IMG/VR virus record: IMGVR_UViG_3300030118_002156
Coordinates: 3,681-47,944 of that record
DNA length: 44,264 bases
Strand: one strand, 5' to 3'
Source: a virus
Positions 2,950 to 17,757 of the stretch are shown piece after piece (position 1 is the first letter of the stretch; the number at the start of each line of letters is the position of its first letter). The position numbers and the translations under genes were made by a program. Below the pieces are notes generated by a model, which was not told where the DNA came from, ran no database searches, and saw only the letters and a list, made by a program, of their open reading frames with translations.

Positions 2950-3714
2950 TTAAGATTTAAGTGCAATCTTCCAATCGTATCTGTCATAATTAGCTCTACT
3001 CTCTATCTGCCTTTGCCTGTCTGCGAGTCTCACTACAATACCATCTGTGGGAAACCTACTGAATAGTTGCGAGTTCTGCCAGTTATCAAATAAAGTTTTT
3101 ACCTTATTTACTACATTAGTTTTTACATTAATTAAACCACTACTTTGTAAACCTAAAGATAAAAATATTTCTTGTTGCTTTGATGGGTCATCTTGAGAAT
3201 CTAAAATCTCAAAAGCACAAAAAGCTAAACCTTCACCAGTAGGATCTTTTTTGCGTAAGTGACCTGATGCGAGTCTTTGAGAATAAGATGGTGTTTTATG
3301 AACACCGTATAATTCACCTCTAATTAATAAATTATCTTGCTTATCTTTTATTTCTAATGGAATATTTTTGACAGTAGTTAAGGCATATAGCTTATCCTTA
3401 CCTCTGCGAGTCCATGCGTTTGAAAGAAAACCATTTGAATAACGTAATAAAATAGCACAACCGTCTATCTTAGGCTGAACAACTACTGATGGCTTATCTT
3501 TAAATAATTCATACCATTCAGAGAAGATAGGTGTATCTAGCCCATCTAGGATTACACCTTTCTTTAGTTCGCTAAAAACTGGGTGGTTAGGATATTTAGT
3601 TTTTACCTTATTTTTAATATCATCAAATTCTCTGTCAGTTATAACAGCCTTGCCTGCACGATATAAAGCATCATGCCTAATAAGATCTATTGCGAGTTTT
3701 TTGATAGAAGACAT
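2950..3714 (-). CDS. Stand-alone NAD-dependent DNA ligase adenylation domain
   Basis: The 254-residue protein matches the nucleotidyltransferase part of bacterial LigA. The N-terminus has a domain-Ia-like stretch (about 18-31, I-T-D-R-E-F-D) that in LigA binds NMN. Motif I is K82-I-D-G with the adenylated lysine, then a R-R-G near 103-105, motif III R-G-E-L-Y (132-136), motif IV D-G-I-V-V-R (224-229) and motif V W-K-I-A-L-K (248-253). The protein stops there: the OB-fold, zinc, helix-hairpin-helix and BRCT parts of the usual 650-residue enzyme are absent. It sits among replication genes and starts after a CTATCT leader. Whether it seals nicks alone, needs a partner, or only transfers AMP cannot be told from sequence. 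Confidence 0.78.
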   Translation of the reverse strand: MSSIKKLAIDLIRHDALYRAGKAVITDREFDDIKNKVKTKYPNHPVFSELKKGVILDGLDTPIFSEWYELFKDKPSVVVQPKIDGCAILLRYSNGFLSNAWTRRGKDKLYALTTVKNIPLEIKDKQDNLLIRGELYGVHKTPSYSQRLASGHLRKKDPTGEGLAFCAFEILDSQDDPSKQQEIFLSLGLQSSGLINVKTNVVNKVKTLFDNWQNSQLFSRFPTDGIVVRLADRQRQIESRANYDRYDWKIALKS

Positions 3715-13026: not shown

Positions 13027-13209
13027 TTAATCAGGCAAGCTTGATATTTTTCTTGATGGAAATAATTGCTGTTCTAAATAATCAACAGCTTTGTCATCAA
13101 GATTATTTGAAGTTTGCTTGCAAAGCACTCTAAGAAGGTCAACTACTAATTGTTTACAAGCGGAAGTTGAAAGAAATTTTACTAAAATCTTTCTTAAAAT
13201 TTTAAGCAT
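13027..13209 (-). CDS. Small helical protein, unknown
   Basis: A 60-residue basic protein with an amphipathic helix (L-K-I-L-R-K-I-L-V-K-F-L) and the segment C-K-Q-T-S-N-N-L-D-D-K-A-V-D-Y-L. I have seen this sort of N-x-L-D-D pattern in short phage proteins of unknown role. It could lie on membranes through the N-terminal helix. It is convergent with the 23-residue peptide. Confidence 0.5.
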   Translation of the reverse strand: MLKILRKILVKFLSTSACKQLVVDLLRVLCKQTSNNLDDKAVDYLEQQLFPSRKISSLPD

Positions 13210-13294: not shown

Positions 13295-13330
13295 ACCTCT
13301 GTTTAAAGCGACTTGAACAGGGGTTTTTTT
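13295..13330 (+). terminator. Strong intrinsic terminator, possibly bidirectional
   Basis: ACCTCTGTT (13295-13303) pairs with AACAGGGGT (13316-13324), nine pairs with one G-U, and T7 follows. On the minus strand the same hairpin is followed by TCTTTT, and the minus gene ending at 13329 lies just before it, so both directions may be used. Confidence 0.7.
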
Positions 13331-13559
13331 ATCGTCTAGGTTTTAATTCAGCTACTTTTACTTCTACTTCTTTTAATCTATGAAATACCTCCCTCATATC
13401 ATCGTGCATAACTTCTATTTTATCTGTAAGTAATTCTATAGCTGTTGTATTACGCACTAAATCATCTCTTGACTGTCTTCCTCTATAAGACATTGAACCT
13501 ACAGAAACAAAACAGGCTGTTAAACATGCCCCACCTAACGCTGCAATTACTTCTATCAC
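13329..13559 (-). CDS. Holin-like small membrane protein with coiled coil
   Basis: The 76-residue protein starts with GTG and has one N-terminal hydrophobic segment (about 3-22), then a charged amphipathic helix (K-I-E-V-M-H-D-D-M-R-E-V) of the kind seen in XhlA-like phage lysis proteins. Membrane location is well supported; holin or lysis function is an inference from size, topology and the neighbouring membrane protein on the other strand. It ends at the bidirectional terminator. A spanin or anchor protein is another possibility. Confidence 0.5.
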   Translation of the reverse strand: MIEVIAALGGACLTACFVSVGSMSYRGRQSRDDLVRNTTAIELLTDKIEVMHDDMREVFHRLKEVEVKVAELKPRR

Positions 13560-13602: not shown

Positions 13603-14001
13603 ATGAAAACAGAATCGCCAGAAAAAACTGTAGAAAAAGAAGATGAAAAACCTGATTATCAAGAGAAAATTACTTTTTTAGTTTCTACATTTGCACAAGG
13701 TTTTATTTTAGCTTGGTGTTTAGTAGTTCTATCTTTAGGGTATATCAAGCTTCCAAATAAACTGTTTGGACTAGATATACCAGACCAGCCCAGAGTGGAC
13801 AGCACGTTCGCTGCGGGACTTTTGGGTAACATATTAGGCGGGCTAGGCATATCTGTTAATGCTGCTAGTGGAGCAAAAAAGAAGAAGAAAGAAGAGGAGC
13901 AAAATGGTAGCTATAATAAAGGTGCTGGGGGAGAGCAAATTATAGTGATTCGTCAGCCTATTGAGTTAATAACAACTAAACCAGAAGTTACTAAACAATG
14001 A
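13603..14001 (+). CDS. Holin-like membrane protein with charged C-terminus
   Basis: A 132-residue protein with a charged N-terminus, a membrane segment (about 25-47, L-V-S-T-F-A-Q-G-F-I-L-A-W-C-L-V-V), a second hydrophobic stretch (about 69-85, G-L-L-G-N-I-L-G-G-L-G) and a K-K-K-K-K-E-E-E run. Two segments with a basic tail fit a class II-like holin. From memory similar proteins occur in marine cyanophages. It opens a five-gene plus-strand operon, and its stop overlaps the next start (ATGA). A 22-codon ORF (13578-13646) overlaps the start in another frame and may be only a leader. Confidence 0.5.
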   Translation: MKTESPEKTVEKEDEKPDYQEKITFLVSTFAQGFILAWCLVVLSLGYIKLPNKLFGLDIPDQPRVDSTFAAGLLGNILGGLGISVNAASGAKKKKKEEEQNGSYNKGAGGEQIIVIRQPIELITTKPEVTKQ

Positions 14002-14507
14002 AAAAACTTATTTTTATTTTTTTATTATTTGCAAGTCCTTCAGTTAAAAGCGACATTCTGCACTCTGTCACGAGTTCAGTCAAACTACAAGTTGATGTGG
14101 CTGCGAGTGCTGCTAAGGCACTTCCGACATCTTACTCTGTTTCTGGGACAAATATTACCCCAACATACGATAGTACCGCCAATGCCATAGGGGGCATGAA
14201 TCTTGGCTCACTTACATCGGGAGTACCGGCTGCTTTAGAGACTACTTTCGCTGTTGCTACTCCGGGGGACAGTTTTTCCCTTAGCGAAAGCTGGCAAACT
14301 GGTGATACTACCCCTAGTGCAACAAGTTTAACTAATCAGGCTGTAAGTTCTTTACCTATGCTTGGTGAAACAACTACGACTGCTGGAGGATCTGCTGGCT
14401 CACTGGCCGGATCTATTGCATCAGATCATGCGATTACAAGTTTGACACCCGGAAATGCTGGTACAAGCGTGACAGGTCAAGTGATTACCTCAATCCAAAT
14501 TGATTAA
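13998..14507 (+). CDS. Exported Thr/Ser-rich protein
   Basis: The 169-residue product has a clear signal peptide (M-K-K-L-I-F-I-F-L-L-F-A-S-P-S-V-K-S, cut near residue 18). The mature part is low in charge and rich in Thr, Ser, Gly and Ala, suggesting repeated beta structure. It should leave the cytoplasm through Sec. It is coupled by ATGA to the holin-like gene. Together with two more signal-peptide proteins downstream it forms an exported set resembling one I recall from T4-like cyanophages. Function unknown. Confidence 0.6.
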   Translation: MKKLIFIFLLFASPSVKSDILHSVTSSVKLQVDVAASAAKALPTSYSVSGTNITPTYDSTANAIGGMNLGSLTSGVPAALETTFAVATPGDSFSLSESWQTGDTTPSATSLTNQAVSSLPMLGETTTTAGGSAGSLAGSIASDHAITSLTPGNAGTSVTGQVITSIQID

Positions 14508-14674
14508 TGAATTGTTGGCACTGTAATACTGAATTGATTTGGGGCGGGGATCATAGTGTAGATGAAAACTGTTATCCTCATTTATTAGAAGAGTATTCAA
14601 TGGTTACTAATTTATCTTGTCCTAAATGTCATTCTGACGTAGAAGTTTTAATGCCTAAATATGCCTATGATTAA
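14507..14674 (+). CDS. 55-residue double-CxxC zinc-ribbon protein
   Basis: This short ORF starts M-N-C-W-H-C-N-T-E-L-I-W-G-G-D-H and carries a second pair S-C-P-K-C-H, so four cysteines form one zinc ribbon. The M-N-C-W-H-C start is a pattern I know from many marine phage small proteins. Its ATG overlaps the previous stop (TAATG) and its end overlaps the next gene. It is the only cytoplasmic-looking member of the exported-protein operon. Confidence 0.72.
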   Translation: MNCWHCNTELIWGGDHSVDENCYPHLLEEYSMVTNLSCPKCHSDVEVLMPKYAYD

Positions 14675-15095
14675 ATATTTATCGTTATTATTTCTATTTT
14701 CTACACCAGTATATTCTACCCCAGTTGTCCCAAACTTCCAGACCGGAGTTTTACAGCAGCATGTAGAAACCAAAAGTACCATAATAGAAAATATCCAAAG
14801 TTTTGAGTTTCGCTCAGGCTATCAATTCACAGTAGGTGGGGTTAATGTTGAATCATCTACTGGGAATGTAGCTCCAGAAGGTTGGGAACAACAAAATTCA
14901 ACTGTACAAGGAGTTGGATCTACTTATGTAATTCCATCGCTGACTAATAAACCTTCATACAATATTGTTAATGAAGGTGCTACCTTTAATTACTACGAAA
15001 CTTTAGAATTTCCGGGGTTGTCTAACTACACAAATATAACGAGAGAAACCACCATAGAAAGTATTTCAGACAGTACAAGTACGTTTAGCCAATGA
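14661..15095 (+). CDS. Exported protein, unknown
   Basis: A 144-residue protein with a signal peptide (M-I-K-Y-L-S-L-L-F-L-F-S-T-P-V-Y-S). The start may be the ATG at 14661 or the one at 14667, which gives the more usual signal. The mature region is beta-rich with aromatic residues (F-E-F-R-S-G-Y-Q-F-T-V-G-G) and no cysteine. It overlaps both neighbours. The function is not known to me. Confidence 0.6.
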   Translation: MPMIKYLSLLFLFSTPVYSTPVVPNFQTGVLQQHVETKSTIIENIQSFEFRSGYQFTVGGVNVESSTGNVAPEGWEQQNSTVQGVGSTYVIPSLTNKPSYNIVNEGATFNYYETLEFPGLSNYTNITRETTIESISDSTSTFSQ

Positions 15096-15736
15096 AGAAA
15101 TACTTTGTTTTACTCTTATTTTTAAATAACCCTATCTTTGCAAATACTATAAATACTACAAGTAATTCAACTGGGTCTGTTACCAATCAAGCGGTACAAG
15201 TTGTCCCATCGAGACAGTTTCAGTACACAATGCAAGGTATTTCTTGCCAAGGAGCTACTTTAAATATTTCTCCATTCTTATCTACAACCTATGGCTTTGG
15301 ATCTCCCTATGAACCGACATATGAAAAACCAGTGTATGATTTATCAGATAATTTTGGTTTAACAGATGATGATGGTAACGATATTGGAGATGGAGTACCT
15401 GATTTTCCGGGCCGTGTACTCTATTACGAAACGGTAAGGACAGGAATGAGAGCTAGTAATACAAGTCTTAATGGTGGCATTACAGCTACTTTTAGTATTC
15501 CATTAGATAGGACACAAATTAAAGAATGTCGCACAGCGATGAAAAAACAGAATGAATTATACGAAGCGAGTCTTGCGTCTAAAAGGCTTAATTACGAAAT
15601 GTCAAGAGCCAAAACTTGCCATGAAATTTATTTAAAAGGAATCTCATTTGTTGGAGAGTTAGCAAAATTATGTGCTGATATTCGTGTTTCTACACCCCCA
15701 GTGCAAAAGCACACTCATAATTTATTAAAGAAATAA
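15092..15736 (+). CDS. Exported protein of a cyanophage-like family
   Basis: The 214-residue product has a signal peptide ending N-P-I-F-A, then a beta-rich domain with I-S-C-Q-G-A-T-L-N-I-S-P-F, P-V-Y-D-L-S, G-V-P-D-F-P-G-R-V-L-Y-Y-E and a helical C-terminal third with paired Cys (K-E-C-R-T-A, K-T-C-H-E-I, L-C-A-D-I). I recall the same succession of motifs in proteins of marine cyanomyoviruses, where the role is not known. It closes the plus-strand operon by ATGA coupling, then meets the minus-strand virion block tail to tail. Confidence 0.65.
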   Translation: MKKYFVLLLFLNNPIFANTINTTSNSTGSVTNQAVQVVPSRQFQYTMQGISCQGATLNISPFLSTTYGFGSPYEPTYEKPVYDLSDNFGLTDDDGNDIGDGVPDFPGRVLYYETVRTGMRASNTSLNGGITATFSIPLDRTQIKECRTAMKKQNELYEASLASKRLNYEMSRAKTCHEIYLKGISFVGELAKLCADIRVSTPPVQKHTHNLLKK

Positions 15737-15737
15737 A

Positions 15738-16478
15738 TTATTTATAAGCTGGTGGTAAATCTTTTTTCTCTCTGTATTTATTTGTCATAAGTTGCTGTTT
15801 TGTTAGCTTAATTGGTCTTTTTTTAAGTAAAAAAGCCTTAATTTTAGTTATTATCTGTTTTGCTATTGGTTTTACAATTTTAGTTAGCAAGGGTGCTGCT
15901 AATGTTGTCGCTGTTACTGCAATAGTTGTGATAGCAAATGTATTAGATACTGTATTTACTGAAGGTAAATATTTTTCTGTAATTGTACTAGGTCTATATT
16001 CCACCACACATTCTTTGGTTTCTTTTATATATTTAAAGCCAATGACTACTTCATCACCAGAAGTACTGTAATCACCTATTCGAGGATTATTCTTTTTTGG
16101 ATCGGGGCAAGGAGGATCTTTTGGAATTTCTGGAATATTAGCGACCTCAGTATTATCAAGGCTATTGTCTGGAGGATCAGGAGGTTGCGGAATTGGAGTC
16201 TCTGGTACAGGTTGTATCTTTTTCGCATCGTAAACCATTGGTGTGAATGTAGGTATTGCACAATTAATTGTTAGATTATTTTTCGGGTCATCTTTTGTGA
16301 GTTGCTTGCTTCTTAAACCATCTCTTCTTATCTCTACGCATGGCATTGTTATAGCTGGTATCTGCAAGTCTCTTGTTATATGTTTTGTATTAGGTATTGA
16401 TGTTTGATTTGGAATTACAAAAATAGATGTCCTTGGTATAGAAACATCTATTAAGTTAATATTTTCTATTTCTGGCAC
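15738..16478 (-). CDS. Proline-rich membrane-associated protein
   Basis: The 246 residues start with GTG, which overlaps the stop of the previous gene (TAGTG). They begin I-E-N-I-N-L-I-D-V-S-I-P-R-T-S-I-F-V-I-P-N-Q-T and continue with Pro/Asp-rich segments and scattered cysteines. Around 180-205 lies a hydrophobic stretch (F-A-I-T-T-I-A-V-T-A-T-T-L-A-A-P-L-L), and the C-terminus is very basic. The topology suggests an outside N-terminal part and an inside basic tail. It pairs with the small membrane protein upstream; both look like cyanophage proteins of unknown role. Confidence 0.55.
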   Translation of the reverse strand: MPEIENINLIDVSIPRTSIFVIPNQTSIPNTKHITRDLQIPAITMPCVEIRRDGLRSKQLTKDDPKNNLTINCAIPTFTPMVYDAKKIQPVPETPIPQPPDPPDNSLDNTEVANIPEIPKDPPCPDPKKNNPRIGDYSTSGDEVVIGFKYIKETKECVVEYRPSTITEKYLPSVNTVSNTFAITTIAVTATTLAAPLLTKIVKPIAKQIITKIKAFLLKKRPIKLTKQQLMTNKYREKKDLPPAYK

Positions 16479-16717
16479 TAAAAGCTAAGTGGTTTTGGAG
16501 TCTTCATTACTGGTGGTGTTGTTGTATTTGGTATTGAAGGCATATTAGTTTTTAAGAGACTTGGTAACTGTTCTTTTATCTTATCTCCTACAAATTCTTT
16601 AATTTCTTTTTGTTTTGTCTCGTTATTTACATACCAATAAATATAAATAATGCCAGAAAAGGCAGTGACAGCAGCAACCGTATTTAGTATGGTTAATGCA
16701 GTAAGAACTTTTTTCAT
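16478..16717 (-). CDS. Small membrane-anchored Pro-rich protein
   Basis: Starting at ATG 16717 the product is 79 residues: M-K-K-V-L-T-A-L-T-I-L-N, one membrane segment (about 5-30), then a charged helix and a Pro/Thr-rich end (P-N-T-T-T-P-P-V). The reading frame stays open upstream through a GTG at 16756 to about 16853, and encodes another hydrophobic stretch without a normal start. I prefer the ATG because this N-terminus is typical of related small phage proteins. It precedes the Pro-rich gene with overlap. Confidence 0.5.
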   Translation of the reverse strand: MKKVLTALTILNTVAAVTAFSGIIYIYWYVNNETKQKEIKEFVGDKIKEQLPSLLKTNMPSIPNTTTPPVMKTPKPLSF

Positions 16718-16852
16718 GTTTAGAGATGCTATGTTAAGAGCCTTAATTCCTGTCACATTGATTACGTTTTGTGCAGTGATGGCTTTAGCCCCACTATATG
16801 TAACATTATCAATGATGACAAGAACTATGACTACTAAAACAGCTAAATAAAT

Positions 16853-17206
16853 TTATAGCTTAATTTTTGTCCCGATTTTGGTTGCATAGCTATTTGAATC
16901 ATCAAATACAGCACTTAATTCACCATAAACAGATAATCTGTCATTAACATTAACGCTTCCACCTGTTTTAGCACTAATATTTGTTTCAGAATCTTGTCCA
17001 TCTACAGACTGAAGTAATCCACCACCTTGAATATACCAAGAAGCATTGTCATTGCTACCTTCGTACCCAACGTGCAAATCTGTATTATTAGATTGATAGT
17101 CAGTTTTTAAGAAACTTGCATTATTTTCAATATTTAGATAGAACCCTGCAAAGGCTGGAGTTGATAGTGCTGAAACAGCAGCTATAGATAAAGCTTTTTT
17201 AAGCAT
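16853..17206 (-). CDS. Secreted beta-rich, porin-like small protein
   Basis: The 117-residue protein has a textbook signal peptide (M-L-K-K-A-L-S-I-A-A-V-S-A-L-S-T-P-A-F-A). The mature part has alternating polar and aromatic residues (F-Y-L-N-I-E-N-N, L-H-V-G-Y-E-G, S-W-Y-I-Q-G-G-G) and ends in I-G-T-K-I-K-L, which looks like a few strands of an outer-membrane barrel. It is too short for a whole porin. It may alter the host surface late in infection, by inference only. Confidence 0.58.
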   Translation of the reverse strand: MLKKALSIAAVSALSTPAFAGFYLNIENNASFLKTDYQSNNTDLHVGYEGSNDNASWYIQGGGLLQSVDGQDSETNISAKTGGSVNVNDRLSVYGELSAVFDDSNSYATKIGTKIKL

Positions 17207-17256
17207 AATTTATAAAAATTAATTCGTTACATGCTAAACGATTTAAGATTTATTGC

Positions 17257-17757
17257 CTAAAAATAATTAAAGTTGATAACAATTCGTCTAGTATTAAACT
17301 CTCCTTTATGTATTTCTCCTGCGTGTTCAAGATGTGAATCAAATTTAACTAACCTATTTTGCTTACATTCAATTTTTTTATTATTTTTTTTAAATACTGT
17401 TTGACCGTTTGTATCTGACAAATAAAAAATTGCTGTTTTCCTGTTTGTTGTATCAAACATTGATCCATCAATATGAAAATTTGTTTGTATTTTATTAGGC
17501 TGTCCAAATGTACAATTTGCTTTTATAAGAATAGGAGCAATTACTTTTAACTTTTTAGCAAATGGTTCAAGTAAATAAAAAAAAGGACTAACAGTATTTA
17601 CTCCCCCATAAAAAATATGTTGTAAATTTAATATTCCATCTCCCTCATGTACTTTATGTTCTGCAAAAAACCAAGGGAAAGAATATGAAATTACTAAATC
17701 ATGCAATGCTTTATATTCTTGTTCATTCAAAAAATCATCAATAATTTCTATTGTCAT
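17257..17757 (-). CDS. 2OG-Fe(II) oxygenase
   Basis: The 166 residues fit the prolyl-4-hydroxylase-like family: H95-x-D97 and H145 as the iron ligands and an Arg pair (157-158) that would hold 2-oxoglutarate. The fold runs from the F-L-N-E-Q-E-Y start to the last strand. Marine phages often carry such enzymes near tail genes. Substrates are unknown; nucleic acid, virion protein or a host factor are all open. The ATG abuts the stop of the gene upstream. Confidence 0.8.
   Translation of the reverse strand: MTIEIIDDFLNEQEYKALHDLVISYSFPWFFAEHKVHEGDGILNLQHIFYGGVNTVSPFFYLLEPFAKKLKVIAPILIKANCTFGQPNKIQTNFHIDGSMFDTTNRKTAIFYLSDTNGQTVFKKNNKKIECKQNRLVKFDSHLEHAGEIHKGEFNTRRIVINFNYF

Follow-up and report, generated by a model that had tools for sequence, protein, structure and literature searches.

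The closest described relative of the locus reported here is a group of genes in the marine T4-like cyanophages. Sullivan et al. (2010, PMC3037559) delineated the cluster T4-GC 218/219/234/235/237, often accompanied by a "plasmid stability" protein, and gave it no function. It was found in 15 of 16 cyanomyoviruses, being absent only from S-PM2, and was proposed to be functionally linked and possibly mobile (PMC3037559). Here we describe a six-gene set of the same families in a lambda-like siphophage. It is contained in a stretch of 44,264 nucleotides (positions 3,681 to 47,944 of the IMG/VR record IMGVR_UViG_3300030118_002156, hereafter the window) from an incomplete contig of 47.9 kb. As judged from the sequences, what is new is that the set is common to T4-like, T7-like (reduced in P-SSP7) and lambda-like cyanophages. 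In the open-licence literature we found no account of the set in siphoviruses and none that ties it to lysis; the PHROG and DUF names likewise led to no paper. The reading that we favor, with evenly balanced confidence, is that the six genes constitute a late envelope-breaching (lysis/release) module of the picocyanobacterial viruses, because six exported or membrane proteins are co-conserved in unrelated phages of the same hosts, are associated with late motifs, and lie at positions typical of lysis loci.

Results

The conserved six-gene unit

The cluster extends from position 13,603 to 17,757 of the window and is flanked by recombination genes on one side and tail fiber genes on the other. 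Its open reading frames (ORFs) overlap or nearly abut, with ATGA-type junctions. The six core genes are as follows.

g1, 13603..14001, plus strand: DUF6450 / phrog_2714 / phrog_721 membrane protein with a charged C-terminal tail (PF20048, E=4.2e-6, over cutoff)
g2, 13998..14507, plus strand: Ser/Thr-rich β protein with a Sec signal, a distant paralog of g4 (phrog_564, 1.8e-38)
g4, 14661..15095, plus strand: DUF6322 / phrog_650 protein with a Sec signal (PF19847, 2.3e-22)
g5, 15092..15736, plus strand: protein with a Sec signal and four invariant cysteines (phrog_848, 1.8e-56)
g6, 15738..16478, minus strand: protein with a Pro-rich arm, a C-terminal transmembrane (TM) segment and a basic tail (phrog_570, 6.2e-36)
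g7, 16478..16756, minus strand: protein with a single N-terminal TM segment and a Pro-rich tail (phrog_568, 4.7e-7)

The distribution of these genes was followed by iterated hidden Markov model searches over loci from IMG/VR and annotated phages, the loci being recruited by g5 (phrog_848). All six are present in 37 of the 38 well-covered loci, namely those with enough flanking DNA; because the loci were recruited by g5, this count represents co-occurrence given g5. The conserved unit is g1, g2, g4, g5, g6 and g7. Three further genes are interspersed with it or adjoin it in the window.

g3, 14507..14674, plus strand: 55-residue zinc ribbon protein, an accessory passenger (zinc ribbon Pfam matches at ∼4e-4, below cutoffs)
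g8, 16853..17206, minus strand: small β-barrel with a signal peptide, a frequent companion (Phage_OMP PF24653 / phrog_417; PF24653 E=3.8e-36, 124.5 bits against a cutoff of 27)
g9, 17257..17757, minus strand: 2-oxoglutarate (2OG)-Fe(II) oxygenase, an accessory passenger (phrog_274, 5.6e-39; PF13640, 3.3e-5; HxD...H...R motif present)

In the well-covered loci g8 occurs 17 times and adjoins g7 in most siphophages of the sister clade. A first-pass annotation, made from the letters of the window alone, had counted a zinc ribbon protein and an oxygenase as members of a transferable, envelope-directed set. Both are present as ORFs, but with g3 in only five of the 38 loci and g9 in only one they lie outside the unit. 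The six core genes do occur together across cyanophage families, which excludes the outcome named in that annotation as contrary to it, that the genes never co-occur. Relatives of g3 vary in position around the module and often lie on the minus strand between g6 and g7 (for example, in loci L016-L069 of our collection). The family phrog_274 bears the name "DNA endonuclease V", and its member g9 looks like a 2OG-Fe(II) oxygenase.

The three signal-peptide proteins that had been noted in one plus-strand operon correspond to g2, g4 and g5, each of which begins with a Sec-type signal, and the secreted β-rich protein and two membrane proteins on the facing strand were found as ORFs g8, g6 and g7. 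To these g1 must be added as a third membrane protein; its homolog in P-SSP7, gp43, is annotated with two TM segments and matches DUF6450 at 2.3e-32. The TM segment of g6 lies at 180-198, and near relative position 0.73 in its homologs; one TM-like segment is seen in 110 of 117 homologs of g7. A crude n-h-c signal pattern is passed by 121/121 homologs of g2, 90/119 of g4, 84/132 of g5 and 39/41 of g8, as against 5% of control ORFs. With family matches that reach E values of 1e-56 and a signal pattern far above the controls, the cluster proteins are real beyond chance. The "plasmid stability" label, and with it a DNA function for g7 or for the module, was rejected, phrog_568 being a one-TM protein with a Pro-rich tail.

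Distribution among cyanophages

The labels in the S-SSM5 and S-SM1 records map onto the window as g1=218, g6=234, g5=235, g4=236, g2=237 and g7=414; T4-GC219 was not identified in the window. By this mapping, the set was already known in the T4-like phages (PMC3037559), and the similar proteins that the first-pass annotation had noted there indeed belong to the same families. The module was found in the T4-like phages, S-TIM5, the T7-like Oinezvirus and the lambda-like group, with all six core genes plus g8 in Oinezvirus S37C6. A reduced form (a g6-like gp42, g1, g4, g5 and a further gene, g0b, described below) occurs in P-SSP7 and other T7-like cyanopodoviruses; the module is likewise reduced in P-SCSP2. 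In the siphophages g1 heads the plus-strand operon and g5 and g6 converge. The T4-like order is g2-g4-g5 facing g6-g7-g1, with g1 following g7 on the minus strand and the g5/g6 convergence kept. The convergent order of phrog_564-650-848 facing phrog_570-568 is identical in the window, Syn9, S-SSM5 and Oinezvirus. DNA-level similarity of the window to isolate phages was too weak to inform.

By tblastn, the g5 gene is present in 411-455 phage records, all of them cyanophage or marine/uncultured virus records. Because the module is spread in this way over T4-, T7- and lambda-like phages, it appears to be linked to the host rather than to the virion, and its description as a transferable set holds for cyanophages of three tail types. 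The same cassette also surrounds the g5 gene on ten contigs assigned to bacteria or archaea. A cellular origin for g5 was rejected; these contigs look like phage contamination of metagenome-assembled genomes (MAGs) or, in one single amplified genome, an infected Prochlorococcus cell. The MAGs and assemblies labeled Nonlabens, Lewinella, Chloroflexota, Euryarchaeota and others (L162-L164, L166-L171) thus hold cyanophage-type cassettes through probable contamination.

Note that the g5 genes of the T4-like and P-SSP7-type loci have no start codon near the signal sequence (L076, L077, L132, L161 and others). The g5 frame (-1 with respect to g4) stays open upstream for at least 56 codons in 40 of 41 T4-like loci and for 40 codons in P-SSP7; the siphophage g4-g5 junction is ATGA with a closed upstream g5 frame. 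In the T4-like and P-SSP7 phages this junction may possibly encode an overlapping N-terminal extension or a programmed frameshift.

Late-promoter motifs and lysis loci

The sequence NATAAATA is the published late promoter of the cyanophages S-PM2 and Syn9 (PMC2984593). This motif, relaxed to [AC]TAAATA, was searched for 16-42 nt upstream of ORF starts in 37 T4-like loci. It precedes g2 in 25 and g1 in 27 of these loci, as compared to 19 of 571 other ORF starts (3%), and no enrichment was observed at the starts of g4, g5, g6 or g7. Given its enrichment at the leaders g2 and g1 and not at g4-g7, two late transcription units are suggested for the T4-like phages. The motifs, which were read in T4-like loci only, fit late expression of the module in these relatives.

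In the siphophages, the module is divergent from a cassette of the lysis type, formed in the window by two small genes.

g0a, 13329..13559, minus strand: first gene of the cassette, 76 residues, holin/spanin-like, with an N-terminal TM segment and a coiled coil
g0b, 13027..13209, minus strand: second gene of the cassette, 60 residues (phrog_2738, 5.9e-14)

Homologs of g0a head an operon ending in an endolysin in S-CBS1 and S-CBS3, the S-CBS3 homolog (gp20) lying three genes ahead of it. Those of g0b follow g5 in P-SSP7 and precede TerS in Syn5. In P-SSP7, gp42-gp46 (g6-like, g1, g4, g5 and g0b) lie between the tail fiber genes and TerS, a slot that holds a phrog_181 endolysin in P60 and a glucosaminidase/C39 lysozyme in S-CBP1. 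In the sister clade of siphophages a C39-like peptidase gene directly follows g0b on the minus strand; the clade of the window has g0a-g0b with no such peptidase after them. This peptidase is unannotated and carries an N-terminal hydrophobic segment (L083-L126 and similar, e.g. L112, 2266-3138), and may serve the marine siphophages as a signal-anchor endolysin. Neither g1, with one or two TM segments and a charged tail, nor g0a, with one, matches a holin family.

These observations bear on an alternative that we judge unlikely, namely that the exported proteins cover the outer membrane of the host or modify it, thereby blocking superinfection or the readsorption of progeny, in the manner of lambda Lom or receptor-masking lipoproteins. 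Such remodeling of the surface or periplasm would suit products that are exported throughout, a set that moves between unrelated phages with common hosts, and the small outer-membrane barrel g8 downstream of the tail fibers; lambda Lom is located by J/stf, a parallel to the position of g8. The promoters, however, are late rather than early, the module occupies the lysis slot in the T7-like phages and siphophages, and six proteins including three inner-membrane anchors would be elaborate for exclusion. Late promoters and lysis-locus position, as far as they can be read from the genomes, favor envelope breaching at release over surface remodeling.

Endolysins in phages with and without the module

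An endolysin or lysozyme was found in eight of nine cyanophages that lack the g5 gene and in two of ten carriers (Fisher p=0.0055 for 19 phages that are not independent). The eight are S-CBS1, S-CBS2, S-CBS3, S-CBS4 (annotated), S-CBP1, P60, S-PM2 and P-SS2 (PMC2784084); the two carriers are S-SM1 and S-SSM5, with SleB-type hydrolases. The GH24 matches in the latter two fall inside ORFs of ∼920-950 residues among the baseplate genes and were excluded. On the window's contig, itself incomplete, no match to the peptidoglycan hydrolase families GH24, Amidase_2, M15_3, M23 or phrog_181 was observed. In S-PM2, regA and hsp20 are adjacent at the site where others hold the cassette, and the phage carries its own GH24 lysozyme, a C39 peptidase and an RlpA-type lipoprotein. 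S-PM2 being the lone T4-like phage of Sullivan's set that lacks the cluster, its possession of a lysozyme was counted for the release reading. The annotated 72-residue "putative lysin" of S-PM2 (L204, 116286-116696) lies within an open frame of 169 residues that matches a full-length phage lysozyme family.

Predicted structures

AlphaFold2 models of g4 and g5 were calculated from alignments of 71 rows. The g4 model (mean predicted local distance difference test (pLDDT) score 83, predicted template modeling (pTM) score 0.46) displays two strands of ∼24 residues, forming a long hairpin, around a small β head. That of g5 (pLDDT 74, pTM 0.39) contains strands, a 42-residue helix and the four invariant cysteines. 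The closest PDB neighbor of g4 by Foldseek is a phage tail protein (E=0.0024), and the oligomeric pore stems of PA, CDTb and lysenin reach E values of only 0.03-0.6; g5 has no PDB neighbor. Among viral predicted structures, most matches of g4 are to small proteins of phages, S37C6 and S-H9-2 among them. Comparison of the g4 and g5 profiles with PDB sequences gave nothing meaningful. A TolC-like fold for g5, suggested by the Foldseek ranks, was rejected, as hhalign against PF02321 (TolC/OEP) gave a probability of 0.6%. Because the Foldseek matches are not significant, a pore or tube is put forward only as a hypothesis.

The long Ser/Thr-rich β strands, low pTM scores suggestive of oligomers, and the tail protein neighbor of g4 would also be in keeping with g2, g4 and g5 as exported fiber- or tube-formers that end on virions or on the cell, and late promoters would suit such an appendage equally. 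We consider this quite improbable given the Sec signals and the sharing of the set by three unrelated tail architectures. Moreover, the virion proteome paper on S-SM1, Syn9 and S-PM2 treats the cluster only as hypothetical proteins (PMC3037559), and the S-SM1 record labels no cluster protein as virion structural. A trans-envelope conduit or envelope-support complex acting during replication (in uptake, secretion or envelope integrity) rather than in release would account for the combination of inner-membrane and exported parts and for the proximity of the cassette to pstS in S-SSM5 and S-SM1, but is very unlikely in view of the probable late expression and the lack of transporter homology, including the rejected TolC/OEP link.

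The host phage

The phage was correctly recognized at first pass as lambda-like. It is a siphophage of 34% GC with a J-type central fiber, K/L-type tail genes, a tape measure, RecT and exonuclease VIII. At positions 8-427 the window encodes an ArdA-type antirestriction protein (phrog_36653, 1e-24; PF07275, 5.5e-6).

Discussion

On the reading of the set as a late envelope-breaching module, we infer the following roles for the individual proteins. In the late stage of infection, g1 (the DUF6450 protein) would act in a holin-like manner in the inner membrane, where g6 and g7 would be anchored as arms. The β-hairpin pair g2/g4 and the disulfide-rich g5 would be exported to form an assembly in the periplasm or in the outer membrane. 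This assembly would open or destabilize the envelope and allow progeny to escape, together with a wall hydrolase where present or with an unrecognized one, and the g8 barrel would serve as an optional outer-membrane companion. More tentatively, and at well below an even chance of being correct, the module may represent a new type of lysis for the picocyanobacterial envelope, in which a holin-like DUF6450 protein, an exported β-hairpin pore pair and membrane-anchored arms can stand in for endolysin and spanin and are swapped between unrelated cyanophages.

Several points weigh against a role in release. The module proteins contain no recognizable lytic or pore domain, and Foldseek returned no PDB match at E<=0.001 for g4 or g5. 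None of g2, g4, g5 and g8 has a lipobox cysteine where its signal is cleaved, as read directly from the sequences, and hence there is no classical o-spanin here. The T4-like cassette sits between replication genes with no adjacent lysis gene. The endolysin census tested a few hydrolase families with statistics that ignore kinship, and Syn5, with neither module nor endolysin, is the sole exception among the nine phages lacking the module. Finally, strict replacement of the endolysin was rejected, as SleB-type hydrolases are found in S-SM1 and S-SSM5 and C39 peptidases lie beside the module in the sister siphophages; with both present in these phages, the module is linked to lysis loci but does not simply take the place of the endolysin.

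Much of the turnover of picocyanobacteria in the ocean is due to marine cyanophages, whose means of breaching the envelope are mostly unannotated. The widespread module provides a concrete candidate. A role in lysis, if true, would fill this gap for the dominant ocean viruses; if surface remodeling were true instead, the set would be the most widespread of its kind known in them.

With respect to known systems, the window shares with the T4-GC cluster phrog_564, 650, 848, 570 and 568, DUF6450 and the convergent order. It differs in that DUF6450 leads the plus-strand operon rather than lying beside phrog_568, the module adjoins a holin-like cassette, and Phage_OMP lies downstream. P-SSP7 gp42-gp46 likewise combine homologs of g1, g4, g5 and g0b in one operon, and gp42 matches phrog_9426, to which g6 of the window also shows a weak match. 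There, however, g2, g7 and g8 were not found, all genes lie on one strand, and the slot is that between tail fiber and TerS. A holin-endolysin-spanin cassette, such as S-CBS3 gp20-gp23, has in common with the module a small TM protein, exported proteins, location and, in the T4-like phages, probable late timing, whereas the window has six novel families, no endolysin and no lipoprotein spanin. Lastly, g8 resembles lambda Lom and PF24653 in being a small signal-peptide β-barrel near the tail fiber region, but differs from them as a companion of the module rather than part of its core.

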